Of a DNA stretch of 62,003 nucleotides, positions 4,002-56,100 are shown piece after piece. Source of the DNA: Oscillospiraceae bacterium. Lineage in GTDB: Bacteria; Bacillota; Clostridia; Oscillospirales; Ruminococcaceae. The position numbers were made by a program, and so were the translations under genes. A model generated the notes under the pieces. That model ran no database searches and was not told the DNA's origin. It saw only the letters and a program-made list of their open reading frames with translations. Positions within the stretch are counted from its first letter, which is position 1. Each line of letters begins with the position of its first letter. The stretch is taken from NCBI GenBank assembly GCA_017465665.1, contig JAFTVU010000018.1, positions 1-62,003 on the forward strand, read 5' to 3'.

Positions 4002-4967
4002 ATGAGGATAGGTATTCTCGGTGCGGGCGGAATCGCCCGTAAGATGGCGCACACCGTCAACAATATGGATAATATGACTCTCGCAGCGATCGGCTCAAGA
4101 AACATTGACAAGGCAAAGGAATTTGCACAGGAGTTTTCCATCCCCACTGCTTACGGCAGCTATGAGGAGCTTGCCGCTGACAGCTCGCTTGATCTCATCT
4201 ATGTTGCAACACCGCATTCCCGACACTACGAGGACGCTCTGCTCTGTCTGGATAACGGCAGAAATGTGCTGTGCGAAAAGCCTTTTACAGCTAACGCCAG
4301 ACAGGCTGAGGAGCTTATAGCTCTTGCCGAGAGCAAGGGTCTGTTCATAGGCGAAGCAATCTGGACCCGTTATCTCCCGATGCGCTTCACACTTGATGAG
4401 ATAATGACAAGCGGCGTTATAGGCACACCCTCATATCTGACAGCAGATCTCGGCTACCAGATAAGCCATGTAGAGCGACTGATAAAGCCTGAGCTTGCAG
4501 GTGGCGCTCTGCTGGATCTGGGCGTGTACACTATAAACTTTGCACTGATGGCGTTCGGAAATGACGTCAAGGAGATAATTTCCTCCTGCAACAAGAACGA
4601 ATACGGCGTGGATACAAACAACTCCATCATCATGAACTTTGCAGACGGAAAGACTGCCATGCTGCACAGTAATCTCAACGCACTCACCGATCTGCGCGGA
4701 ATGATCTATGGCGATAAGGGCCGCATCGAGTTCGAAAACATCAATAACTGCGAGGGAATAACAGTATACCTCAACGATGGCACTGTCACCCGATATGATA
4801 CTCCTCCTCAGATAACAGGATTTGAGTATCAGGTGCAGGCAGCAGCCGACGCTATCGCAGCAGGCAAGACTGAATGTCCGCAGATGCCGCACTCCGAGAT
4901 CCTGCGTGTGCAGCGTATCATGACAGACCTGCGTAGCGAATGGAGAATTCATTACCCGTTTGAATAA
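4002..4967 (+). CDS. Gfo/Idh/MocA family oxidoreductase
   Basis: 321 residues. The dinucleotide-binding motif GILGAGGIA begins at residue 4, and the family signature CEKPF has Glu92-Lys93-Pro94. The C-terminal alpha/beta domain is of normal length. These cytoplasmic enzymes oxidise or reduce sugars, inositols or dihydrodiols with NAD(P). It follows the mannanase by 9 bp and is the last gene before a strong terminator. The operon partners suggest a small oxidative sugar pathway, but the substrate is unknown. Confidence 0.88.
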   Translation: MRIGILGAGGIARKMAHTVNNMDNMTLAAIGSRNIDKAKEFAQEFSIPTAYGSYEELAADSSLDLIYVATPHSRHYEDALLCLDNGRNVLCEKPFTANARQAEELIALAESKGLFIGEAIWTRYLPMRFTLDEIMTSGVIGTPSYLTADLGYQISHVERLIKPELAGGALLDLGVYTINFALMAFGNDVKEIISSCNKNEYGVDTNNSIIMNFADGKTAMLHSNLNALTDLRGMIYGDKGRIEFENINNCEGITVYLNDGTVTRYDTPPQITGFEYQVQAAADAIAAGKTECPQMPHSEILRVQRIMTDLRSEWRIHYPFE

Positions 4968-4975
4968 ACACTAAA

Positions 4976-5017
4976 CGCTCCGTTAATCTTTTTATATAGA
5001 TGACGGAGCGAATTTAT
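4976..5017 (+). terminator. Rho-independent terminator after the mannanase operon
   Basis: The arms CGCTCCGT (4976-4983) and ACGGAGCG (5003-5010) pair, followed by AATTTATTT. It separates the operon from the symporter promoter that starts at 5018. Confidence 0.75.
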
Positions 5018-5046
5018 TTGACAACAGCTATTTTATCTGGTAAAAT
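5018..5046 (+). promoter_or_regulatory. Promoter of the alanine symporter gene
   Basis: A consensus -35 TTGACA (5018-5023), a 17-bp spacer and TAAAAT (5041-5046) lie 33 bp before the start codon. Confidence 0.75.
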
Positions 5047-5078
5047 AATAAGCAATTATTGTTATCAAGGAGATACCT

Positions 5079-6542
5079 ATGAACGAAACTATCGAGGCTA
5101 TAGAAACTGCAGAAGCAGACATTTTTGAAAAGGTAATGAACGGTGTCAGCACAGCAATATCAGCCACAAGCAACGCATTGTACAGCTATATCCTTATCAT
5201 CCTGCTCGTAGCCGCAGGGTTGTATTTTACCATACGCACAAAATTTGCTCCGTTCCGTCTTTTCGGCGCTCAGATAAAAGCTGTCATGGAAAAGCCGTCT
5301 GACGGAAAAAGCGTATCCTCGTTCCAGGCACTGATGGTATCCACTGCTTCGAGGGTGGGCACAGGAAACATCGTCGGAGTATCCACAGCGTTATGTCTGG
5401 GCGGCTTCGGCTCGGTATTCTGGATGTGGATGATCGCCATAATCGGCAGTGCTTCCGCTTTCATAGAAAGCACCCTTGCCCAGATATATAAACGCAGAGG
5501 TCCTGAGGGCAGCTACGGTGGTCCTGCATATTATATAGAAACTGCACTTAAATGCCGTCCGCTGGCTGTGATGTTCTCGGTATTTCTCATACTGACATAC
5601 GGCTTCGGCTTCAACATGCTTGCATCATACAATCTTCAGTCCACATTTTCAGCATATTCATTTTATGACCCAACCATAACCCCATGGATAATCGGTCTTA
5701 TCGTTGCTGCGGCTGTGTTCTATTGTCTGGTCGGCGGCGGCTCACGAGTTATCAAGGCTACAAGCTTCCTTGTGCCTGTTATGGGCGTTGCGTATATTCT
5801 GGTATCGCTCATCATAATCATCCTGAACATAACATCTCTGCCTGCAGTATTCGCACGAATATTCACAGAAGCATTCGATCTTCAGGCAATATTCGGAGGC
5901 TTTGGCGGCTCCTGCGTGATGTATGGTATCAAGCGCGGACTTTTCAGCAACGAAGCAGGCGTAGGCTCTGCGCCCAACGCGTCCGCCTCTGCCGAAGTAA
6001 GCCATCCCGCAAAGCAGGGACTTGTACAGGTGCTCTCCGTTTTCATAGATACGATACTTGTATGCAGCGCCACCGCTTTCATGTGTATGTGCTCAGGCGT
6101 TGAGCCAAGCGAGAAGCTTTCTGGCGCGCCCTATGTTCAGGCGGCACTCAGCGAAAACCTCGGCTCTTTCGGTCCGATATTCATCACTGTTGCAATGATA
6201 CTTTTCGCATTCACAACACTTCTCGGAAATCTGTTCTACGTTGATAAGTGCCTTATCCACATCAACAAAAAGCAACCCTCCAAAAAATTCATGCTGGGCT
6301 ATCGTATCGTTGCTTCGCTTGTTATATTGGTTGGCGCAGGCATGAGCGCCGGTCTGCTGTGGGATATTGCAGATGTGCTCATGGGCGGCATGACGCTTAT
6401 CAATATCCCTGTCATAATCATTCTCGGAAAATATTCATTGAGAGCGCTGAACGACTATGAAAAGCAGCGCAAAGAGGGCAAGGAGCCTGTGTTCCACGCC
6501 AAGGATATCGAGCTTCCTGACGAGGTAGATTACTGGCAATAA
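5079..6542 (+). CDS. Alanine/sodium symporter, AGCS family
   Basis: 487 residues with about eleven hydrophobic segments. Family landmarks include FQALMVSTASRVGTGNIVGV, the GGPAYYIE region and GIKRGLFSNEAGVGSAPNA, all typical of AGCS (DagA/AlsT-like) carriers that take up alanine or glycine with Na+ or H+. The start has a good AAGGAG site, and the gene is monocistronic with its own promoter and a shared terminator. The C-terminal tail of about 25 residues is charged and cytoplasmic. Substrate is inferred from the family. Confidence 0.9.
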   Translation: MNETIEAIETAEADIFEKVMNGVSTAISATSNALYSYILIILLVAAGLYFTIRTKFAPFRLFGAQIKAVMEKPSDGKSVSSFQALMVSTASRVGTGNIVGVSTALCLGGFGSVFWMWMIAIIGSASAFIESTLAQIYKRRGPEGSYGGPAYYIETALKCRPLAVMFSVFLILTYGFGFNMLASYNLQSTFSAYSFYDPTITPWIIGLIVAAAVFYCLVGGGSRVIKATSFLVPVMGVAYILVSLIIIILNITSLPAVFARIFTEAFDLQAIFGGFGGSCVMYGIKRGLFSNEAGVGSAPNASASAEVSHPAKQGLVQVLSVFIDTILVCSATAFMCMCSGVEPSEKLSGAPYVQAALSENLGSFGPIFITVAMILFAFTTLLGNLFYVDKCLIHINKKQPSKKFMLGYRIVASLVILVGAGMSAGLLWDIADVLMGGMTLINIPVIIILGKYSLRALNDYEKQRKEGKEPVFHAKDIELPDEVDYWQ

Positions 6543-6549
6543 ACACACA

Positions 6550-6573
6550 AAAGCGGCAGATAACTGCCGCTTT
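6550..6573. terminator. Bidirectional terminator between symporter gene and glgB
   Basis: AAAGCGGCAG (6550-6559), loop ATAA, CTGCCGCTTT (6564-6573). A-rich and T-rich flanks allow use from both strands. Confidence 0.8.
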
Positions 6574-6575
6574 AA

Positions 6576-8363
6576 TTATTTCTTCAAAGGATTATCACAC
6601 AGCTCGAAATAAGCCGCAGAGTATCTCGGTACGTTCAGCTTCACATTGCCATCCTTATCGGCACGCATCGTCTTTTTGTAATGCGGAGCGCAGCCGCCGA
6701 ACTCATCAGCAGTGCTGTCAAGCAGACAATTCAGCATCTTTCCCTTTCCGATATGAATAGTATAACGCTCCTGAGTGCTGTCGGAGAAATTCATCACAGC
6801 AACAACGGGCTTTTCGCCCTCGCAACGGCGCATAACAGAATAACAGCGGCGCAGTGCACTGTCACAATCCAGCCATGCAAAGCCATCGGGGGTGTCGTCC
6901 CATCGGGAAAGCGCCGGCTTTTTGAGATACAGTCTGCAAAGCTTCTTCATGAACTGCGAGAACGCATCGTGATTGGGATACTTCAGCACATCCCAGTCCT
7001 GCTCCCTTTTTTCATCCCATTCACGAAGCTGACCCAACTCGCTGCCCATAAAATTCAGCTTCTTGCCGGGGTGCGCGTACATATACATATACAGCGCCCT
7101 TGCCTGCGGGAACTTATCCTCATACAAGCCATGCATCTTCTGAAGTATAGTTGCCTTACCGTGTACGTTTTCATCGTGTGAAAGAGCCAGTATGTATCTC
7201 TCGCTGTAATAATACAGCATAGAGAACGTCAGCTTGTGATAATTCGGTACGCGCTCCTCAGGAGTCTTGCGGAAATAATCCAGCGTATCATTCATCCAGC
7301 CCATATCCCACTTGTAATCAAAGCCTAACCCACCCTGATCCACAGGCTTTGTTACACAGGCATAATCAGTGGAATCCTCTGCACACAGTATCGCTGATGG
7401 ATGTATCCATTTGAGTCCCGTATTCATGCTCTTCAGGAATTCCAGACCGTTTGTATTTACGCCTCGGCGTTCGTTGCCCATCCAGTATATTATGCGGCTG
7501 ATAGCATCCATCCTGAGTCCGTCAAAATGATATTCACTGAGCCAGTAATTTGCTGCAGATTTCAGAAAACTGCATACATGACCCTTGCTGTAATCAAAAT
7601 TCTTGCTGCCCCATTCACTGTTGGAGATATCGCCGTACTCCGATTCGTACAACGGCGTTCCATCAAAGTTCGCCAGACCGTAACCGTCCACCGCAAAATG
7701 AACAGGCACAAAATCCAGCAGCACAGCTATTCCGTTCCTATGGCAGGTATCCACCAGCTTTTTTAGCTCTGATGCTTCTCCGTAGCGCGCGGTAGGCGCA
7801 AAGAACCCAGTAGCCTGATACCCCCACGATTCATCACAGGGATATTCGTTCAGCGGCATAAGCTCTATGCAGTTATAGCCATGCTCCCTGCAGTATGACA
7901 CTATCGCAGGTGCAAGCGTTTCATAGGAAGCCGCCTCTGACTTCCACGAGCCTAAATGCAGCTCATAAATATTCAGCGCATCCCCATGCCATGTTCCACG
8001 GTCACTCATCCACTGAAAATCATCAAAATGATAGTTCATATTCCTGATGACTGAAGCATTCTCAGGACGAAGCTGCGCTCCGAAAGCATAAGGATCGCAA
8101 TGATCCACATAGCTGCCCTGTGAATATATACGGAACTTATACATATCCCCTGCCCTTGCCCCTGAGATATAAAGCCCCCAGAAATTATCATCACCGACAT
8201 GGATCATCTCGGCAGGCTGCCAGTCATTAAAGCTGCCTATTACCGCCACAGCTTCAGCATTAGGCGCAAACACTCTGAACATCGTGCCGCCGATATCGGT
8301 ATGTGCGCCCAGCCATTGATAGCTGTCAAAGCTGTTGCCGCTGTAAAACTCGTCTAATTTCAT
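6576..8363 (-). CDS. glgB: 1,4-alpha-glucan branching enzyme (GH13)
   Basis: 595 residues, shorter than the about 730 of enteric GlgB because the first N-terminal module is absent. A CBM48-like domain (about 15-100, FRVFAPNAEAVAVIGSFNDW) is followed by the GH13 barrel. Catalytic residues are visible: nucleophile Asp286 in GLRMDAIS, acid/base Glu329 in CAED, and Asp397 in SHDENVHGK. It makes alpha-1,6 branches in glycogen in the cytoplasm. No other glycogen gene is nearby. The start follows AAAGGATAAA. It is transcribed divergently from the TetR gene and shares its promoter region. Confidence 0.93.
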   Translation of the reverse strand: MKLDEFYSGNSFDSYQWLGAHTDIGGTMFRVFAPNAEAVAVIGSFNDWQPAEMIHVGDDNFWGLYISGARAGDMYKFRIYSQGSYVDHCDPYAFGAQLRPENASVIRNMNYHFDDFQWMSDRGTWHGDALNIYELHLGSWKSEAASYETLAPAIVSYCREHGYNCIELMPLNEYPCDESWGYQATGFFAPTARYGEASELKKLVDTCHRNGIAVLLDFVPVHFAVDGYGLANFDGTPLYESEYGDISNSEWGSKNFDYSKGHVCSFLKSAANYWLSEYHFDGLRMDAISRIIYWMGNERRGVNTNGLEFLKSMNTGLKWIHPSAILCAEDSTDYACVTKPVDQGGLGFDYKWDMGWMNDTLDYFRKTPEERVPNYHKLTFSMLYYYSERYILALSHDENVHGKATILQKMHGLYEDKFPQARALYMYMYAHPGKKLNFMGSELGQLREWDEKREQDWDVLKYPNHDAFSQFMKKLCRLYLKKPALSRWDDTPDGFAWLDCDSALRRCYSVMRRCEGEKPVVAVMNFSDSTQERYTIHIGKGKMLNCLLDSTADEFGGCAPHYKKTMRADKDGNVKLNVPRYSAAYFELCDNPLKK

Positions 8364-8392
8364 TCAAAATTTATCCTTTTTTCTGATTTTCT

Positions 8393-8444
8393 CAATTAAT
8401 TGGTTAAATTGATTATTGACAATTGTCTATTTTTGTACTATAAT
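8393..8444 (+). promoter_or_regulatory. TetR-gene promoter with overlapping palindromes in the glgB/TetR divergent region
   Basis: A perfect promoter, TTGACA (8416-8421), 17 bp, TATAAT (8439-8444), drives the TetR gene. Two perfect 10-bp palindromes lie here: CAATTAATTG (8393-8402) and GACAATTGTC (8418-8427), the second overlapping the -35 box. They are possible operators. A weak glgB promoter can be read on the minus strand (TTGTCA, 17 bp, TTAATT). Confidence 0.65.
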
Positions 8445-8532
8445 ACATTATAGTGAATAATATAGGTTTGTTCAATCATCATTTTCATAGAAATGTCATA
8501 TATGCGACATTTAAGGAACATTGTTTATCGTT

Positions 8533-8570
8533 TTGTATACTATCAAATGGAAACGTATACAATGCGTTTC
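8533..8570 (+). repeat. Inverted repeats in the TetR-gene leader
   Basis: TTGTATAC (8533-8540) is repeated inverted as GTATACAA (8555-8562). GAAACG (8550-8555) pairs with CGTTTC (8565-8570), just before the AGGAGG ribosome binding site. These could be operator half-sites or a leader hairpin that affects translation. The 140-nt leader is unusually long for such a gene. Confidence 0.45.
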
Positions 8571-8584
8571 AGGAGGTAATTATT

Positions 8585-9136
8585 ATGGATCTCAGAATAC
8601 AGCGCACAAAATCCGCAATCAAGGATTCTTTTCTGGAGCTCAGACGCAAAAAGCCTATCGAAAAAATAACCGTTACCGAGCTCACAAAGGCGGCAAATAT
8701 CAATAAGGCTACTTTCTATCTGCACTATTCCGATATATATGCTCTTTCGGATGAAATAGAGAATGCTATCATAGACGAGATACTCATCGATCTGCAGGTG
8801 CAGGATAAATTCTTTGACGCCCCCCAGCAGTATGCAAATGAGATATTCAAGGCGATAGTTGCCCACCGTGAACAGATAGACGTAGTGTTCTCGGGAAGCA
8901 GAAACGCCATCGCCGCCGATAAGATAGAAGCGCGTATCAAGAATATGCTCTTTGGCACATATCCCGATTTCTGCAATCTGCATAACGACGTTATACTTTC
9001 CTTTCTGATACAGGGTATCTTCCACACAGTAAAGACCAGCCGCATGACAGGCGATATGAAAGAAGAATATGAGGTTCTTGCGAAGCTGTGTTCTATGGTT
9101 ATCGGAGAGACCACACTTCTGAAAACCAAAAATTAA
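8585..9136 (+). CDS. TetR/AcrR family transcriptional regulator
   Basis: 183 residues from the ATG at 8585, chosen because AGGAGG sits 9 bp upstream; the frame is open further 5' but lacks a ribosome binding site there. The N-terminal HTH (about 10-55) contains ITVTELTKAANINKATFYLHY, a typical TetR recognition region. The C-terminal effector domain is divergent. It is probably an autorepressor and may also control glgB, with which it shares an intergenic region, or the downstream GH95 gene. Ligand unknown. Confidence 0.88.
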   Translation: MDLRIQRTKSAIKDSFLELRRKKPIEKITVTELTKAANINKATFYLHYSDIYALSDEIENAIIDEILIDLQVQDKFFDAPQQYANEIFKAIVAHREQIDVVFSGSRNAIAADKIEARIKNMLFGTYPDFCNLHNDVILSFLIQGIFHTVKTSRMTGDMKEEYEVLAKLCSMVIGETTLLKTKN

Positions 9137-31940: not shown

Positions 31941-33158
31941 TCATCTGATACCGTAGTGCTCAATGATATAATCCATATCCTTATCACCTCTGCCCGAGAG
32001 ATTGATGAGGATAGAGCCATGCTTCATCTGCTTTGCAAGCTTTATTCCATACGCTACCGCATGGGAGCTCTCGATCGCGGGAATTATTCCCTCCATACGG
32101 GAAAGCGTGAAGAATGCGTCGATAGTCTCATCATCGTTGATGACATCGTATTTTACTCTGCCGATATCGCGCAGGAATGCGTGCTCAGGTCCTGAGGATG
32201 GGTAATCCAGACCGCTTGCAACGGAGTACACGGGCGCAGGCTCGCCGTTTTCATCCTTAAGCATGATGCTGTTGAAGCCATGCATCACACCCTCCTCTCC
32301 GTATTGTAGGCTGGCAGCGTGATCGCCCAGCCTTTCACCTCTGCCAAGAGGTTCAATGCCGTAGATATCCACCGGATCGTTCAGGAAGCCCGAAAACATT
32401 CCCATCGCATTCGAACCGCCGCCAACACACGCAACCACCGCATCGGGAAGCTCGCCCGTCATTTCAAGGAACTGCTCGCGTGCCTCTATTCCGACTACGC
32501 TCTGGAAATCGCGCACCATCATAGGGAACGGATGAGGACCTACCACCGAGCCTATACAATAGATGCAATCCTTGTATTCTCTGCAGTATGCTTCAAATGC
32601 AGCGTCTACCGCCTCTTTGAGTGTTGCAAGTCCATGAGTTACTTCAACAACATTTGCTCCGAGTATCTTCATTCTCGCAACATTGGGAGCCTGCTTCTTG
32701 ATATCCACACTGCCCATATAGATATCGCACTCAAGTCCGAAATATGCCGCTGCAGTAGCCAGCGCTACGCCATGCTGACCTGCGCCAGTCTCTGCAATGA
32801 CTTTCTTCTTGCCCATATATTTTGCAAGCAGCGCTTCGCCCATACAGTGATTGAGCTTATGCGCGCCTGTGTGGTTGAGATCCTCGCGCTTTACATAAAG
32901 CTGTACATCGCCAAGGCTGTTGGAGAGCCTCTCAAGATAGGATATGGGAGTGGGTCTGCCCTGGAACTCCTTGCGTATCTTTCTCAGCTCACCGATAAAT
33001 TTTGAGGATTTGCATATCGTATAATATGCCTCTGTTATCTCCGCCATAGCTTTTTTCAGATCATCGGGAATGAACGCTCCGCCGTATCTGCCATAAAAGC
33101 CGTTGTTATCGGGGTAGTTCTTGAAGTAGTTAGTGAATTCAAAGTTATTGTGTGTCAT
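31941..33158 (-). CDS. trpB: Tryptophan synthase beta subunit
   Basis: 405 residues, usual for TrpB1. PLP Lys101 is in HTGAHKLN, catalytic Glu124 in AETGAGQHG, and the phosphate-binding GGGSNAMG is present. It condenses indole with serine to tryptophan. No trpA or other trp gene is near; a lone trpB behind a tryptophan T-box suggests indole use or an otherwise scattered pathway. The start has GGAGG (9 nt) and lies inside the end of a 33-codon upstream frame. Confidence 0.94.
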
Positions 33159-33283: not shown

Positions 33284-33587
33284 CAAAAACGCCCCCGACA
33301 GAAGTATACTCTTCTGTCAAGGACGAATAAATACTTATCCGCGGTGCCACCTTGATTCACAGCAATGACGCTGTGCGCTTGCGGGATACCTGCATATCCC
33401 CGGCAACTGACGTATGCCCCACGTCGCAGAATACTCTGTGCGCCTACAGTTGGCTTACACATTTGACTGCGCCCTCAGCGGTCCATTTGACAACTTGTTT
33501 CTTACCTGACTCTCAGCACCACAGGTTCTCTGTAAAGGCATCATTGCCGTTATCTCCGCATCAACGGTTTAGGTTATTCACTTGTTT
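33284..33587 (-). promoter_or_regulatory. T-box riboswitch, tryptophan-specific (UGG specifier)
   Basis: On the minus strand, Stem I has the distal AGAGAACC...GGTGCTGAGAG region and a specifier loop reading CAAA-UGG-A-CCGCU-GAG. This matches the glyQS layout (GAAA-codon-A-stem-GAG), so the codon is UGG (plus 33483-33485). The T-box core AAGGTGGCACCGCGG is at 33339-33353. Its UGGC pairs with the GCCA end expected of tRNA-Trp (G73). A 14-bp terminator (GTCCTTGACAGAAG arm, 33291-33324) and a T-run follow. Uncharged tRNA-Trp should prevent termination and raise trpB expression. Confidence 0.93.
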
Positions 33588-47879: not shown

Positions 47880-47981
47880 TAAATTAATTAAAAATATACC
47901 ATTGTCTAAAAAGTGGGATTTAAAACAGGGAATGGAATAAAAGCCATTTTCTTCAATATCCCGAACTATATGGAGGTACTT

Positions 47982-50900
47982 ATGAAAAAGAAGATCTTTG
48001 CAGTACTCACTGCAACTCTGATCGCTTTTCAATGCTTCACAGGACTGCCTTTCGGCAGCTTAGGCTCTGTGCAGACTGTGGCAAGCGCTGAATTTGAAGA
48101 CGCGATATCTGCAGACACTGCAGGAATGACCTATGAGGCGGGGATCCTCATCAACGGTCAGCCCCTTACAGAAAACATGGTAGTCAAGACAGGTGACACC
48201 CTCTCCATGGATTTCAAATGGAAGCTCCCGTCTGACTTCGTTCATGTAAACGGAACATTCTGTATTGATCTGAGCGAAAAGCTATATGGCATCTCGCTGA
48301 ATAACATTTCCATTCCTGTAAGCACTATTGCAAAATATACAGTACAGGATGATAAGCTGTATATCCAGCTGCTGACAGGATCCAGCGGACGCGAGGGCGG
48401 ATGTAACCTCAAGGGCGTTATCAGTCTTGATGGGGTGGATGACGCTGACGACGGCACATTTGAACTGAAGTACTTTGGCAACTCCGTGCCTGTTCGTATC
48501 CCCGAAAAAGTTTCAGGTCTATGGATGAACAAGGATAAGAACGGCAGCGTATATGATGGCGGCGACGGATACTACTATCAGGATTTCAGAATTTATGTCG
48601 GCAGCAACGGCGCAGCCTCCACCAATGTACATATCACCGATATATTCGATACCGCAGCTTACTCAGACGTCACATCGATCGTGATAGACGGCTCTCCTGC
48701 CACATACACTCCTGTAAGCGATGACGCTTCCACAACGGATGTAACAGAAAGCGGCTTCAGCATTATCATTCCCAACCTTGAAGCAAACAAGACCAGTACC
48801 ATTTCCTATACGCTCAGGCTTGATAAGGACAAGGTGCTTGCCAATACGCTTACCGACAGCCAGAAGCGCAATACCGCAACGGTTTACGGAAATAACGACA
48901 CTTCCAAGACCTATTCCGACTACGACAGCTACTGGGCTGACCTGCCTACAATATACAAAACAGGCAGCTATGCAGATGGCAAGATCACTTGGACTATCAC
49001 AGTAAGACCTAACCTTGTAGCAGATGCAGATTTCACTGTTACCGATACACCTGACGCGCTGATAAGCGATGCTGTCATGGCTAAGCTCGGCGCTGATCTT
49101 CAGATAACAAAGGCAGAAATGACCTACGACAGCGTAAACAAGTGCTATACATACTCGTACACTATCGATGCGCCTGCCGCTGGTATTACTCCCACCAATA
49201 TCAACAATAAGGCTGCTACCGAATTCCCTGCATACCCTAATCTTGGCACAGAAAGCACCTCCGGAGTAACTATCCCCGGTACTCTTACCGATTTTGTAAA
49301 GAAGACATATACAGATCCTGCAGGCGGTCTTCTGTACTGGCATGTCAATGTAGATCTCCCAAAGGATCAGAACATATCAAGCGTTGTTATTGAAGACAGA
49401 CTGTATGACAGCGATTACGCAAACAGCCAGAAATACCACGGCGATGGCAAGCCTGTAAACCTCGATCACTCCACACTGGACTTTACTGTGTATATAAACG
49501 GCAGTGAGGTAACCGATTATGTGCTGTTCAAGAACAACGGCACAGGCAGATGGTTCATCGGAAAGCTCAATGCCGATGGCACTGTAAATGAGATAATCGG
49601 TCAGGTAAACAATCAGTACAATGGTTATTTCAGCATCACTATTCAGGATGCTCAGTACAGCTATGTTGAGCCGGGCCTGTATGGCGATGAATGGAAGAGC
49701 TACACCTCCACTTTTCTCAGCAATAACAAGAGCAATGAGGTGGACTTTAAAGTAGACATAGCTTCTACCTACAGTGATACCGTACTCAACTGCTCCAATA
49801 CCGCTTATGCCAATATCACGATTGACGGCTCTACAGTTAGCGAGGGTTCAAGAGCAAGATATGTAAAGGATTATGACAGCTCCAAGTATTCGTATCCCCC
49901 TTACCAGAATCACTTTACTCACAGCATGCCGGCCATGACCAATCCACTTGGCTGGATGATAGCAGTATCCTCCGCGACATACGAGCTTGGTGATACCATC
50001 ACTGTTACCGACACATTGCCGACAGGTCTTGAATACGTTGACAACAGCGCTATGCTTTACATTGCATCTATGGACGGAGATATCTGGAACGGCAATGCTT
50101 ATCAGACACCTCTCACAGTTACAGAGCTCGGCAACCAGCTCACATTCACTGTAACTGTAAATGATGCTATTCTTCAGAAACTTACTGAGCAGAATGAAAG
50201 CACCATTAAGATCAACTATCTGACCGAGATGAGCTCTGCGGAATATGAAAGCTTCATCGTTGGTGCAACTGAAAAGAGCTACACAAACAGCGCTGAAATC
50301 AAGCTGCTGGATGCAAGCACCTCCACCAATCATGATCTCGGCACTGTAACAAACACACAGACTCTTACACCTGATATCACCAAGATAATCAGAAAAGAGA
50401 TAACAAATCAGCCTATTAAGGAAAATGACAAGTTCTATGCTGAATACAAGATCACACTTAATGAAGCCGAGGTAAATCTGTTCAACGGCAACGTTTATGA
50501 CGCCTATGACACACTCGGCACCAATCTGAAGCTTGACGGCAATCCCGTTATCACTCCCAATGCAAACAGTGAGACATTTACTTACGGCGCAGATAATAAG
50601 ATCAGATTCAGCAATCTGCAGGATAACACAACTTATGTTATCACCTACAGGGTTCTTGTTGACCAGATACTTGCCAATGAAGAACCTCTTGATTCTGATA
50701 CCGCAGCTATAGAGCAGATGTTCGGAAACTCTGTATCACTGACTCTGTCAGGCGGAACGAATGCAAAGCAGTCAATGGTTCTTCAGAAGGGCACATACCG
50801 CTCCGAGGCTTATTATGTGTTTGATGAGCATACCGGTAACGTTACCATCTCCGGCACAAAGAGCTGGATCAACGACAGCAAGCACCCCGGTGCACGTCCC

Positions 50901-52520
50901 GAATACATCACAGTTAAGCTGAAGATCACAAAGCAGTCTGTAGGTGGTGCTGAAACTGTTTACTATGACACCCACAGCATTCCTGCTCCTGCAACAGATG
51001 AAAGCGGAAACTGGTCCTACACCATCTCCAACCTCATCACCAAGGAAGCTGACGGCACACAATACATCTATGATGTTGATGAAGTAACGGTAGACGGTTA
51101 CGAAGTAGCTTACTCCTCTACAACAAACAGCACAAACCCCAATACAGGCATTGCAAACAACACTTCTGACAAGGTCGGTTATAATCTGGATATCAAGAAC
51201 ACATTTACCGCTGCCGAAAACGAAGAAGGCAGCCTTAAGGTGACAAAGATCTGGGCAAATGATACAGCTGCAGATCGTCCCGACAGCATCATAATCGAAC
51301 TTGAGGACCTGTATACGGGAGATTTCTATACCGAACTCCTTACAAACGGACAGGATAGCGTTACATTCACAGATCTTCCTCTGTATGTCTACACACGTAA
51401 TCCTGACAACACACTGAAGAGAGAGCTCAGAGAATACAAGCTTATCGAGAGCTGGGATACTGCTTACGATGAGCAGATGTCCAGATATGTAACCACATAT
51501 TCCTCTGAAAAATTCACTCTGGCAGATGCAGTACTTGCACCCTATACTTCAACAACTGCACCTGCACAGCAGACAATAACCAACACAAGACTGACCGTTG
51601 CTCCTGCTGTAATAAACAAGACCTATGAAAATGCGGAAGCATCCGAGCTTTCTTCACTTGCAGCTGCAACCGAGTTTACTCTTTACAGCGACGCTGCATG
51701 TACAGCAGCCATCAAGACAGGTGTTCCTGTTGTAAGCGGAACTAATGTTTCCGTAAGCTTCAGCGGTCTTGATTTCAACACCACCTACTATGTAAAGGAA
51801 ACTAAAGCACCTGCGGGTTATACTCTCAGCGCAGATATCTACGAGTGTAAAATAGACAACCTCGGCGGTGTATACTACAAGCTGTACGATAGCACCGACG
51901 CATTCAGCACAACTGCACCTACTTGCATAAACGCTGAATCTACCGCAACTCCTCCTAGTGGTGATGATGATACTCCCACTACTCCTCCCAGCGGCGGAAC
52001 TGATACTCCCACTACTCCTCCCAGCGGCGGAACGGATACTCCTACAACTCCTCCCAGCGGCGGAACGGATACTCCTACAACTCCTCCCAGTGGCGGAACC
52101 GATACTCCTACAACTCCTCCCAGTGGCGGAACGGATACTCCTACAACTCCTCCCAGCGGCGGAACTGATACTCCTACAACTCCTCCCAGCGGCGGAACGG
52201 ATACTCCTACAACTCCTCCCAGTGGCAGCGATGAAACTCCTGTAGTTCCTCCCGCGGAAAGCGATGAGGCTCCTGTTGCTCCTCCTGAGGAAAGCGATAA
52301 AGCTCCTGAAGCAACCGAAGAGCCTGACGATCCCACTGATCCCACCGAAGATGATTCTATCGGTGTAACACCCGATTCCTCCGTTGAGGGCGATCAGGTC
52401 AACCCCGAAACAATGACGGGCAGACTTCCTTTTGGTATCGCAGCAGTTGCCGCTGCCGCAACATTTACCACTGCATTTATCTCATTCAAGGATAAGAAAC
52501 GCAGAAACGGTAAAAAGTAA
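47982..52520 (+). CDS. Large cell-surface protein with Cna-B domains and proline-rich repeat stalk
   Basis: 1512 residues from the ATG at 47982 (GGAGG upstream); the frame is open to 47913 without a ribosome binding site. A signal peptide ends near ASA-EF (about 33). A long beta-rich region of adhesin type spans about 35-950. Two Cna-B-like domains start near 954 (GTKSWINDS) and 1083 (LKVTKIWAND). A SpaA/prealbumin-like domain is near 1209-1315 (YYVKETKAPAGYTL). Eleven-residue repeats (1331-1418) form a stalk, then an acidic stretch, a hydrophobic span and a KDKKRRNGKK tail. No LPXTG is present; NPETMTG just before the span may be an NPxTG-like sorting signal. Likely an adhesin or pilin-like wall protein. 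Confidence 0.88.
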   Translation: MKKKIFAVLTATLIAFQCFTGLPFGSLGSVQTVASAEFEDAISADTAGMTYEAGILINGQPLTENMVVKTGDTLSMDFKWKLPSDFVHVNGTFCIDLSEKLYGISLNNISIPVSTIAKYTVQDDKLYIQLLTGSSGREGGCNLKGVISLDGVDDADDGTFELKYFGNSVPVRIPEKVSGLWMNKDKNGSVYDGGDGYYYQDFRIYVGSNGAASTNVHITDIFDTAAYSDVTSIVIDGSPATYTPVSDDASTTDVTESGFSIIIPNLEANKTSTISYTLRLDKDKVLANTLTDSQKRNTATVYGNNDTSKTYSDYDSYWADLPTIYKTGSYADGKITWTITVRPNLVADADFTVTDTPDALISDAVMAKLGADLQITKAEMTYDSVNKCYTYSYTIDAPAAGITPTNINNKAATEFPAYPNLGTESTSGVTIPGTLTDFVKKTYTDPAGGLLYWHVNVDLPKDQNISSVVIEDRLYDSDYANSQKYHGDGKPVNLDHSTLDFTVYINGSEVTDYVLFKNNGTGRWFIGKLNADGTVNEIIGQVNNQYNGYFSITIQDAQYSYVEPGLYGDEWKSYTSTFLSNNKSNEVDFKVDIASTYSDTVLNCSNTAYANITIDGSTVSEGSRARYVKDYDSSKYSYPPYQNHFTHSMPAMTNPLGWMIAVSSATYELGDTITVTDTLPTGLEYVDNSAMLYIASMDGDIWNGNAYQTPLTVTELGNQLTFTVTVNDAILQKLTEQNESTIKINYLTEMSSAEYESFIVGATEKSYTNSAEIKLLDASTSTNHDLGTVTNTQTLTPDITKIIRKEITNQPIKENDKFYAEYKITLNEAEVNLFNGNVYDAYDTLGTNLKLDGNPVITPNANSETFTYGADNKIRFSNLQDNTTYVITYRVLVDQILANEEPLDSDTAAIEQMFGNSVSLTLSGGTNAKQSMVLQKGTYRSEAYYVFDEHTGNVTISGTKSWINDSKHPGARPEYITVKLKITKQSVGGAETVYYDTHSIPAPATDESGNWSYTISNLITKEADGTQYIYDVDEVTVDGYEVAYSSTTNSTNPNTGIANNTSDKVGYNLDIKNTFTAAENEEGSLKVTKIWANDTAADRPDSIIIELEDLYTGDFYTELLTNGQDSVTFTDLPLYVYTRNPDNTLKRELREYKLIESWDTAYDEQMSRYVTTYSSEKFTLADAVLAPYTSTTAPAQQTITNTRLTVAPAVINKTYENAEASELSSLAAATEFTLYSDAACTAAIKTGVPVVSGTNVSVSFSGLDFNTTYYVKETKAPAGYTLSADIYECKIDNLGGVYYKLYDSTDAFSTTAPTCINAESTATPPSGDDDTPTTPPSGGTDTPTTPPSGGTDTPTTPPSGGTDTPTTPPSGGTDTPTTPPSGGTDTPTTPPSGGTDTPTTPPSGGTDTPTTPPSGSDETPVVPPAESDEAPVAPPEESDKAPEATEEPDDPTDPTEDDSIGVTPDSSVEGDQVNPETMTGRLPFGIAAVAAAATFTTAFISFKDKKRRNGKK
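51972..52235 (+). repeat. 33-bp tandem coding repeats (TPTTPPSGGTD)
   Basis: Seven near-identical 33-bp units (51972-52202) are followed by one diverged unit. Differences between units are mostly silent third-position changes, so copy number probably varies by slippage or recombination. They encode a rigid Pro/Thr stalk that lifts the adhesin head from the wall. Confidence 0.93.
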
Positions 52521-53423: not shown

Positions 53424-53452
53424 TTGACTTTTGGGATTTAACGTGCTATAAT
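53424..53452 (+). promoter_or_regulatory. Promoter of the isoleucine T-box transcript
   Basis: TTGACT (53424-53429), 17 bp, TATAAT (53447-53452). Confidence 0.8.
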
Positions 53453-53458
53453 GACATC

Positions 53459-53732
53459 ACAAAAACAATGACGAAGACACGTTCGTTATCTGCAACGTTT
53501 TCAGAGAGCCGTCGGCAGGTGTGAGACGGTAACGCCGGATAGTGAACATCCCTTCTGAGTTGGAGTGCTGAAATATCAGTAAGTGCTCTCGTGAGGCTGC
53601 GTTAATGCATAGGGCTTATCCCTGAAAAAGGAGAGTCTGAAGGTGGCGGGCAGAATAAAGCTGTTCCGCAATTTGAGTGGTACCGCGGGTTTGATACTCG
53701 TCTCAAAGTGAATGCTTTGGGGCGAGTTTTTT
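53459..53732 (+). promoter_or_regulatory. T-box riboswitch, probably isoleucine-specific (AUC specifier)
   Basis: Stem I has the distal CAGAGAGCCGTCGG...GTGTGAGACGG region. The specifier side reads GAAC-AUC-C-CUUCU-GAG, in register with the glyQS pattern GAAA-codon-A-stem-GAG, so the codon is AUC (53548-53550). The base after the codon is C instead of the usual purine. The T-box core GAGTGGTACCGCG is at 53675-53687; its UGGU pairs with ACCA, matching the A73 of tRNA-Ile. A 13-bp terminator (53696-53708 with 53715-53727) and T6 follow. Uncharged tRNA-Ile should turn on the acyl-CoA synthetase gene. Confidence 0.88.
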
Positions 53733-53775
53733 GTTTTATACGCTATGCCCCTACAACAGTGAAAGGAGAAACACC

Positions 53776-56100
53776 ATGCCGCACAATCAGAACACAACAG
53801 AACAGAAGATCCATGAGGTCGCACAGCGAATCCGTACCCTGCGCGAGGATATGGGTATATCAGCAGAGACTATGGCTGCAAAGACAGGCTTTTCAGCAGA
53901 GAATTACAGAAAGATGGAGAACGGTGAGATAGACTTCAGCTTTACTTTCATCCACAAATGCGCGAGCATTTTCGGCGTAGATATCGCAGAGCTGATGGAG
54001 GGCGATACACCTGAGCTCACAGGCTACACTGTTACCCGTAAGGGACAGGGCAAGCCCATCGTACGCAGAGCAGGCTTTGAATACAACCGTCTTGCACATA
54101 AGTTCAAGGATAAGATCGCAGAGCCTTTCCATGTTGTCATTCCTTTTTCCGAGGAGGCACTCAGCGGAGACAGACATCTTGCAAGCCATGCAGGTCAGGA
54201 AATGGATATCGTTATCAAGGGCACACTGAGAATGATAATCGGTACACATATCGAGACTCTTCACGAGGGTGACTGTATCTATTATGACAGCTCCATCCCC
54301 CACGATGAGATAGCTCTGGGAGGCGAGGACTGCGAGATCTACGCATTCGTTATGGCTCCGCAGGACGGCGAGCAGGATACAGGATACCACGAGCATATCC
54401 GCTCCTATACTCATTCCAACTTCTACAAGGCAGGTATCTCCCACCCTGTTGCAGATAAATTTGTATCCTGCGAAACTGACGAGCATGGTATGCTTTCCGC
54501 AGTTAACTTCCACAACGAGGAGAGCTTCAACTTTGCTTATGATATCGTAGACGCTCTTGCAGAAAAGTGCCCCGATAAGACAGCAATGATCTACGTTGCT
54601 GATGATAAATCCGAGCGCCGCTTCACTTTCAAGGATATCATGAAGTACTCCTGCCAGACTGCGAATTACTTCAAATCGCTCGGCATCAAAAAGGGCGATA
54701 AGGTAATGCTGGTGCTAAAGAGACATTATCAGTTCTGGTTCTCTATCCTTGCACTGCATCGTCTGGGCGCGGTAGTGATCCCCGCTTCCAATCAGCTTGT
54801 AAAGCATGATTTTGAATATCGCTTTGACTCAGCTGAAATATCCGCAGTAGTATGTACAGCAGACGGAAATGTTGCAGATGAGATCGATCTTGCAGCGCCC
54901 AACTGTCCCTCCCTCAAAACAAAGATCATGGTAGGCGCAAAGCGCGAGGGCTGGAACGACTTCAACGAGGAGCTTTCCGCTTACAGCACAAAGTTCCCCA
55001 GAAATGACGATACCGCCTGCGGCAGCGATCCTATGCTGATGTTCTTCACATCAGGTACAACAGGATACCCCAAGATCGCTATGCATGACTACAAATATCC
55101 TCTCGGCCACTACACCACAGCCCGTTACTGGCATAATGTAGACCCCAACGGCATCCACTTCACCATCTCCGATACAGGCTGGGGCAAGGCACTGTGGGGC
55201 AAGCTGTACGGACAGTGGATGTGTGAGACCGCCGTTTTCGTATACGATTTCGAGCGCTTCCATGCAGAGGATATCCTCCCCATGTTTGCTAAGTATAACA
55301 TCACTACTTTCTGTGCACCTCCCACCATGTACCGCTTCTTCATCAAGGAGGATCTTTCCAAGTATGATCTCTCCAGCCTGAAATATGCCACCATCGCAGG
55401 CGAGGATCTCAACCCCGAGGTGTTCTATCAGTTCAAGAAAGCAACAGGAATCTCCCTCATGGAGGGCTTCGGTCAGACAGAGACTACTCTTTCCATCGCA
55501 AACTTCGTTGGCATGACTCCCAAGCCAGGCTCAATGGGCAAGCCCAATCCGCTGTATAATGTTCACATCATGAACGCAGACGGAACTGAGGCAGGAGTTG
55601 GTGAGACAGGTGAGATCTGCATAAAGACAGGCGACAGCAAGCCCTGCGGCCTGTTCATGAGCTACTACAACAACGAGGAAAGCACTCACGATGCATGGCA
55701 TGACGGCTACTACCACACAGGCGATACTGCCCGTATGGACGAGGATGGCTACTACTGGTATGTCGGCAGAGTGGACGATCTTATCAAGTCCTCCGGCTAC
55801 CGTATCGGCCCGTTCGAGATCGAAAGCGTAATCATGGAGCTTCCTTATGTTCTGGAGTGCGCTGTTACAGGCGTTCCTGATGAGATCAGAGGTCAGGTAG
55901 TAAAGGCTACCATCGTTCTTACAAACGGCACTCAGCCCTCTGACGAACTGAAAAAGGAGATCCAGACCTACGTAAAGAACCAGACCGCTCCCTATAAGTA
56001 CCCCAGAGTTATTGAATTCCGCGACAGCCTGCCAAAGACTGTAGGCAGCGGAAAGATCCGCCGCAGCGAGATCCGCGAGCAGGACGCAGCCAAAAAGTAA
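53776..56100 (+). CDS. HTH-cupin-acyl-CoA synthetase fusion under T-box control
   Basis: 774 residues from the ATG at 53776 with GAAAGGAG. Residues 10-75 are an XRE-type helix-turn-helix (RIRTLREDMGISAETMAAKT). Residues about 138-193 are a cupin (SHAGQEMDIVIKG, DSSIPHDEIAL). Residues about 250-770 are an AMP-forming acyl-CoA synthetase with the P-loop TSGTTGYPK (425-433), GFGQTE, YHTGD and catalytic Lys760 in GSGKIRR. All enzymatic motifs are intact. It should activate a carboxylic acid to its CoA ester. With an isoleucine T-box upstream, 2-methylbutyrate (a ruminococcal growth factor and isoleucine precursor by reductive carboxylation) is the attractive substrate; this is inference. The HTH suggests it may also bind DNA. 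Confidence 0.9.
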   Translation: MPHNQNTTEQKIHEVAQRIRTLREDMGISAETMAAKTGFSAENYRKMENGEIDFSFTFIHKCASIFGVDIAELMEGDTPELTGYTVTRKGQGKPIVRRAGFEYNRLAHKFKDKIAEPFHVVIPFSEEALSGDRHLASHAGQEMDIVIKGTLRMIIGTHIETLHEGDCIYYDSSIPHDEIALGGEDCEIYAFVMAPQDGEQDTGYHEHIRSYTHSNFYKAGISHPVADKFVSCETDEHGMLSAVNFHNEESFNFAYDIVDALAEKCPDKTAMIYVADDKSERRFTFKDIMKYSCQTANYFKSLGIKKGDKVMLVLKRHYQFWFSILALHRLGAVVIPASNQLVKHDFEYRFDSAEISAVVCTADGNVADEIDLAAPNCPSLKTKIMVGAKREGWNDFNEELSAYSTKFPRNDDTACGSDPMLMFFTSGTTGYPKIAMHDYKYPLGHYTTARYWHNVDPNGIHFTISDTGWGKALWGKLYGQWMCETAVFVYDFERFHAEDILPMFAKYNITTFCAPPTMYRFFIKEDLSKYDLSSLKYATIAGEDLNPEVFYQFKKATGISLMEGFGQTETTLSIANFVGMTPKPGSMGKPNPLYNVHIMNADGTEAGVGETGEICIKTGDSKPCGLFMSYYNNEESTHDAWHDGYYHTGDTARMDEDGYYWYVGRVDDLIKSSGYRIGPFEIESVIMELPYVLECAVTGVPDEIRGQVVKATIVLTNGTQPSDELKKEIQTYVKNQTAPYKYPRVIEFRDSLPKTVGSGKIRRSEIREQDAAKK

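Follow-up and report, generated by a model that had tools for sequence, protein, structure and literature searches.

T-box leader and fused synthetase gene

The window, by which we mean the whole stretch of 62,003 nucleotides analysed here (contig JAFTVU010000018.1 of the Oscillospiraceae bacterium assembly GCA_017465665.1), contains a T-box leader followed by a gene for a fusion of a helix-turn-helix (HTH) domain, a cupin and an AMP-forming acyl-coenzyme A (CoA) synthetase (Table 1). The covariance model of Rfam family RF00230, whose gathering score is 93 bits, matched the leader over its full length (model positions 1–219) with 113.4 bits (E 2.6e-24). In this alignment the leader reads GAA-C-AUC-C, and AUC occupies the specifier columns. 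The original prediction, made from the sequence letters, had placed a T-box with the specifier AUC and the antiterminator UGGU before an HTH-cupin-acyl-CoA synthetase gene. The model score, the specifier columns, on which no other codon fell, the UGGU motif found in the leader and the Pfam domains of the protein bear out each of these points, and the leader, its specifier and its terminator are direct computational observations.

Table 1. Features of the T-box locus in the window
Feature	Position	Strand	Basis
Promoter-like TTGACT-17-TATAAT, TG before the second hexamer	53424..53452	+	consensus scan, 11/12
T-box leader, specifier AUC (Ile), antiterminator UGGU	53459..53708	+	Rfam RF00230
Specifier codon AUC	53548..53550	+	covariance-model alignment, position counted on the sequence
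Intrinsic terminator with a stem of 14 pairs and a T-run; it overlaps the antiterminator's 3' side	53696..53727	+	fold z -5.2
Open reading frame (ORF) of 774 aa, HTH/cupin/AMP-binding fusion	53776..56100	+	ATG at 53776 after AAAGGAG
Gly470 codon (MacsMa Gly255; Ala in Val-controlled sisters)	55183..55185	+	alignment
Hairpin 3' of the stop codon	56106..56144	+	18 pairs; scan reported the - strand only

Ten RF00230 matches at E 0.001 were obtained in the genome of the window, six of them over the cut-off. The specifier columns of other leaders in this genome carry CUC before LeuA, CCC before ProRS and UGG before TrpE, these genes being named by eye from their translations. Since the specifier columns fit the gene function in these three cases, AUC in the window is read as isoleucine, and the gene is probably switched on by a lack of this amino acid. 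No tRNA-Ile, the A73 of which would fit UGGU according to the original prediction, was found among 30 of the 36 tRNA matches in the draft assembly (all 30 scanned by script, 25 of them listed by the tRNA finder). Hexamers resembling TTGACT and TATAAT are also present in six relatives aligned with the upstream region of the window; the weight of the promoter-like site is limited by the number of such sites in the region, four against 4.0 in shuffled sequences, i.e. no excess. Within the hairpin stem downstream of the gene, the + strand reads CCGCACA-GGA-TGTGCGG followed by six T by eye, and this is likely to be the end of transcription.

Pfam models located the HTH at residues 15–73, Cupin_2 at 137–190, AMP-binding at 262–619 and AMP-binding_C at 681–755; HTH_31, HTH_3 and Cupin_2 all scored above their cut-offs, and the acyl-CoA synthetase part spans approximately residues 230–773. 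An AlphaFold model of the fusion based on 41 sequences (mean predicted local distance difference test 83; predicted template modelling score 0.64) begins with five helices, which are followed by a beta-rich domain and the synthetase. The closest Protein Data Bank (PDB) entry by phmmer was 3etc (rank 1, 679 bits, E 7.4e-203), which is MacsMa, the medium-chain acyl-CoA synthetase of Methanosarcina acetivorans, and two chains of 3etc took ranks 1 and 2 in a Foldseek search with the AlphaFold model. In the structure alignment, 53% of the residues of the catalytic part are identical. The MacsMa chain of 3etc (580 aa) lacks an HTH-cupin part and covers residues 225–771 of the window protein. The acyl pocket of MacsMa, reported to be formed by W237, W254, K256, W259, C298 and G351, maps on identical residues of the window protein (W452, W469, K471, W474, C513 and G542), and MacsMa Gly255 is matched by Gly470. 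MacsMa is not known to be under T-box control. The substrate favoured by MacsMa is, according to PMC10455477, 2-methylbutyrate. The top NCBIfam model was that of MbcS (NF047394; 449.1 bits), covering residues 249–773, i.e. the synthetase part only, and MbcS is described in PMC10026030 as activating 2-methylbutyrate and isobutyrate, and isovalerate poorly. Enzyme family and pocket residues are direct computational observations; the 774-aa fusion is very probably, as predicted from its sequence, a 2-methylbutyryl-CoA synthetase.

The A10 motif before the catalytic lysine (positions 56038–56064), commonly TISGKIRR, is here lengthened by one residue to TVGSGKIRR. All eight members of the clade of the window protein have TVG(S/N)GKIRR, and thus one residue more than MacsMa at this place, and the form occurs in at least eight of the 217 homologues described below, as counted among the 15 commonest A10 forms, which cover 205 of them.

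Specifier codons and pocket residues in relatives

Of 197 sampled genomes of the family, 131 have a homologue of the synthetase at a limit of E 1e-60; at the stricter limit of E 1e-150, and irrespective of a T-box, this holds for 192 of 295 sampled genomes of the order. The window's genome is counted in both figures. The loci from named genomes were the best 80 of at least 593 matches in the scan; they come mostly from gut or rumen metagenome-assembled genomes (MAGs) labelled Ruminococcus, Oscillospiraceae or Clostridia, and the sole strain-titled, non-MAG record among these 80 is R. flavefaciens SAb67. In total, 217 unique homologues were compiled by merging identical proteins only, so that near-copies of the same species are counted repeatedly. 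The HTH-cupin part is fused to the synthetase in 170 homologues and encoded by a separate gene just upstream in 35, and none was found for the remaining 12.

The original prediction had suggested a genome search for T-boxes before HTH-cupin-AMP-binding genes. A readable T-box leader precedes 157 of the 217 homologues, and the specifier is that of isoleucine (AUC) in 128 and of valine (GUA or GUC) in 29. The leader readings come from a pattern script, with spot checks against the covariance model. Fifteen of the 157 specifiers were set by hand, nine from model alignments and six from the pattern output (L115, L184, L145, L212, L207 and L208, of which L145, L207 and L208 have no UGGNAC match in the stretch inspected). 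The script readings CCT, GAC and GGC were judged to be misparses; for L039 and L141 the reading of the covariance model was used instead, and L136 was left unread. In many relatives two synthetase genes lie in tandem, with an isoleucine T-box before the first and a valine T-box before the second.

At position 470, 127 of the 128 isoleucine-read enzymes have Gly and all 29 valine-read enzymes have Ala; the valine-specific sister genes are, like these residues, a computational observation. The replacement of Gly by Ala should shrink the pocket, as expected for isobutyrate, which has one carbon less. Among the 60 homologues with no readable leader, part of which sit at contig ends, position 470 is Gly in 34, Ala in 25 and Met in one. 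The last, L203, is unfused and has the pocket motif GWMK in place of GWGK or GWAK. A tree was calculated without the pocket columns for 173 rows (90 Ile, 26 Val and 57 none; the fourth locus set was excluded, and L167 was not labelled Ile), and its T-box rows show four changes of the specifier and four of the pocket. The association of specifier and pocket is a consistent pattern that involves few events and falls short of statistical proof. The T-box codon can serve as an independent indicator of the acid expected for each synthetase, and the difference of one pocket residue allows a direct test.

Vor and IlvE genes and the proposed route to isoleucine

A common gene order in many relatives is isoleucine T-box, synthetase, valine T-box, synthetase, CbiA-like ATPase, VorB, VorA and VorC, often followed by IlvE, which alternatively stands before the CbiA-like ATPase. 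By these assignments the cluster holds together the predicted steps from acid to acyl-CoA, 2-oxoacid and amino acid. In one cluster tested against curated models, VorB (555.6 against 399 bits) and IlvE (502.3 against 307 bits) were both above their cut-offs; VorA and VorC were labelled from gene order and similarity. VorB was seen by eye within flanks of at most 5 kb in 26 of the best 80 named loci (on the opposite strand in L139), and among 11 clusters retrieved for this purpose, many of them cut stretches, VorB was present in 10 and IlvE in six. The occurrence of these clusters in relatives is likewise observed by computation. The CbiA-like ATPase is a protein of about 215 aa, and in many of these clusters its gene separates the synthetase gene from that of VorB (e.g. 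L276 6185–6841). Several clusters adjoin a LeuA-like gene, in some cases behind a leucine T-box with CUC or CUG (L052, L114, L120, L132, L138, L145 and L268); its product of about 460 aa has the HMGL and LeuA_dimer domains and was below the LeuA cut-offs in L268, the one tested.

VorB was over the cut-off in all 30 chosen genomes with a synthetase, in one of 15 genomes without it and in three of 14 well-known control genomes. In 19 of the 30 synthetase genomes VorB lies within 3 kb of the synthetase on the same strand, as judged by eye from coordinates. Ketol-acid reductoisomerase (KARI) was found in one of the 16 genomes with two adjacent synthetases, in eight of 14 with other arrangements, in 10 of the 15 without a synthetase and in all 14 controls. 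The 45 genomes of this comparison were chosen for high completeness and not at random, the Fisher tests applied to it ignore kinship between genomes, and absence of the synthetase was judged at E 1e-150 in nine and at E 1e-60 in six of the 15 genomes, which may have weaker homologues. The 16 tandem genomes were defined by the coordinates of two adjacent synthetase matches. Seven of them (G154, G105, G237, G281, G459, G431 and G238) have leader readings, and in six the order is isoleucine, then valine, the second leader of G459 being unread. Given KARI in only one of the 16 tandem genomes, the genomes with paired genes are mostly without this enzyme of the usual valine and isoleucine route, and have the acid-to-amino-acid set instead.

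The set of Vor, IlvE and synthetase comprises the genes expected for the classical rumen route, by which branched volatile acids give rise to isoleucine and valine. In the rumen, 2-methylbutyrate is a precursor of isoleucine and isobutyrate one of valine (Robinson and Allison 1969, Allison and Peel 1971, cited in PMC7356843). As cited there, the rumen reports on reductive carboxylation concern the conversion, whereas we propose a gene set and its regulation. We consider it highly probable that a T-box responding to a lack of isoleucine drives a MacsMa-type synthetase for this purpose. According to this scheme, the leader, a transcription-attenuating T-box, would sense uncharged tRNA-Ile, and transcription would read through into the synthetase gene when isoleucine is short. 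The synthetase, the C-terminal two thirds of the fusion, would join 2-methylbutyrate from the environment, released by neighbouring microbes in gut or rumen, to CoA with ATP. A Vor-type 2-oxoacid:ferredoxin oxidoreductase would carboxylate 2-methylbutyryl-CoA reductively to 3-methyl-2-oxopentanoate, which would be transaminated to isoleucine. The substrate, the direction of Vor and the response to tRNA are presumed here. The original prediction had already read the locus as a route from 2-methylbutyrate to isoleucine, and this gains support from the likeness to MacsMa, the conserved isoleucine specifiers, the valine sisters with their pocket change and the VorBAC/IlvE clusters.

The opposite direction, in which 2-methylbutyryl-CoA derived from isoleucine would be removed by degradation, seems most improbable to us. 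Vor enzymes are known for oxidative decarboxylation in peptide fermenters, and acyl-CoA synthetases can be reversed; on the other side, AMP-forming synthetases are known to run towards acyl-CoA, and a T-box, by its established mechanism, would switch the gene on when isoleucine is lacking, which is the wrong sign for degradation. It is also unlikely that the enzyme supplies 2-methylbutyryl-CoA for anteiso fatty acids, with the isoleucine T-box acting as a proxy for a missing isoleucine-derived precursor. MbcS, the best NCBIfam model, feeds fatty acid synthesis in Staphylococcus aureus (PMC10026030), a role unlike the route proposed for the window enzyme, and the ORF list of the window has no pathway gene beside the synthetase. 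However, the genes of relatives adjoin VorBAC and IlvE, which fits amino acid synthesis, and the valine-read sisters and the lack of KARI in 15 of the 16 tandem genomes also point to amino acids.

The genome of the window contains the fused gene and one unfused pair of HTH-cupin and synthetase genes, the unfused synthetase being 56% identical to the fused one in the synthetase part. It also encodes a VorB-type protein, observed directly by its score of 545.7 against 399 bits (L175 4268–5338, contig C76), beside which lies a CbiA-like ATPase (L175 3347–3994). This genome has IlvD and KARI, which would suit activation of propionate or another short acid, with propionyl-CoA passing through 2-oxobutyrate into the normal isoleucine pathway, and MacsMa adenylates propionate (PMC10455477). 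The same source describes the MacsMa adenylates of many such acids as ill-suited to the thioester step. The gene is kept in genomes without KARI and its valine-read sister fits isobutyrate rather than a propionate route, and we regard the use of propionate as very unlikely.

Returning to the proposed route from 2-methylbutyrate, several observations speak against it or narrow it. The MbcS equivalog cut-off of 850 bits was not reached by the window protein. The unfused homologue L167 has a T-box of 99.7 bits reading AUC, yet Ala at the pocket position, and Ala is found in 25 of the 60 homologues with no readable leader; therefore, Ala alone does not mean isobutyrate. Eleven homologues, mostly from the ruminant gut, have the fusion and a promoter-like site and no T-box by pattern. 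They are labelled Ruminococcus where named, L031 has fewer than 210 bases upstream, and the covariance model found no T-box in L032, the one member so tested. Behind the association of specifier and pocket the tree has only about four changes; its supported branches hold three independent pairs, in each of which both changed together, and the sign test gave p 0.25. In the window's genome the synthetase and Vor are on different contigs, the two subunits after VorB stay under the cut-offs of the 2-oxoacid oxidoreductase beta and gamma models that they match, and the de novo genes for IlvA, IlvD and KARI are present.

Two stricter statements were rejected on these data. Residue 470 is not a perfect Gly/Ala code, given L167, the homologues with Ala but no readable leader, and L203 with Met. 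The window's genome cannot be said to require the route for want of de novo genes, because IlvA, IlvD and KARI are there; the route is an alternative in it, and most likely would spare or back up de novo synthesis.

The leader resembles RF00230 leaders of amino acid biosynthesis genes in its full-length match, specifier, UGGU and terminator, and differs from them in controlling an acyl-CoA synthetase. The terms acyl-CoA, acetyl-CoA (synthetase), AMP-binding and CoA ligase are absent from the main texts of PMC3766115 and PMC2494555, and searches of open-licence literature, as well as passages of these two articles and PMC12452182, yielded no account of such a synthetase under T-box control. What we propose as new is the combination of a known riboswitch class with a known enzyme class, which gives a known conversion a gene set and a control. 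A conserved tRNA-controlled gene set is thereby proposed for branched-acid conversion in gut bacteria, and genomes could be read for dependence on isoacids, which have been tried as rumen feed supplements (PMC10311502, PMC13029022).

Other leaders of this genome were recorded alongside. The T-box-like leaders L010 1501–1721 (+) and L009 1501–1721 (-) scored 45.1 and 47.6 bits, respectively, are 86% identical to each other and have AUC near the specifier place and no UGGN antiterminator motif where expected. One of them precedes the threonine dehydratase gene ilvA, and the other precedes the unfused HTH-cupin and synthetase genes. A search for a wider family of these leaders, with at most three candidates per genome scored, gave elsewhere mostly short matches, chiefly to stem I. 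A further set in the same genome (L174, about 4760–8894, -) has IorA above the cut-off, followed by IorB-, PaaK- and ACT-domain-like proteins by eye, and is an arylacetate counterpart of the branched-acid route.

The HTH-cupin part and neighbouring features

The cupin residues H138, E142 and H176 and the HTH residues R18, R23 and F58 are unchanged across 127 aligned fused proteins. This invariance suggests that the HTH-cupin part has kept a function, and the cupin is likely to bind a metal. Like XRE-cupin regulators, the window protein has HTH_3/HTH_31 and then Cupin_2; in contrast to stand-alone regulators of this kind, the part is here joined to an enzyme in one polypeptide or has its gene immediately before that of the enzyme. 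PDB entry 1y9q (192 aa), an XRE-cupin transcription regulator, matched the window protein over the HTH only (E 0.069).

Positions 61, 98, 118 and 470 separate 111 isoleucine-type from 28 valine-type fused proteins without overlap. Position 61 is in the HTH, positions 98 and 118 fall within the predicted cupin fold or at its margin, and only position 470 is in the enzyme. Because the valine-type proteins mostly form one clade, shared descent accounts for part of this separation. The likeliest guess is that the HTH-cupin part is a regulatory domain sensing a metabolite of the same branch, which could be the acid, the CoA ester or the amino acid, and the role of a DNA-binding sensor suggested in the original prediction is compatible with the sequence. 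More tentatively, and less probably than not, the fused HTH-cupin may be a working sensor-repressor, in which case one polypeptide would form the CoA ester and also, by way of a cupin specific for the isoleucine or valine branch, regulate transcription of the gene or cluster that encodes it. This would add a second layer of control above the tRNA-sensing leader. The alignment of upstream regions from the window and six relatives (seven sequences) has conserved promoter hexamers and a conserved leader; no systematic operator search was made.

Elsewhere in the window, a second T-box with the specifier UGG (Trp) lies at 33316–33573 (-), with a score of 86.4 bits, below the gathering score. It precedes an ORF of 405 aa (31941–33158), named TrpB-like by eye, and a leader similar to it precedes TrpE on contig C66. 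A surface-type protein of 1535 aa is encoded at 47913–52520 (+); close to the C-terminus it has PPSGGTDTPTT repeats one after another, and its end resembles a membrane anchor.

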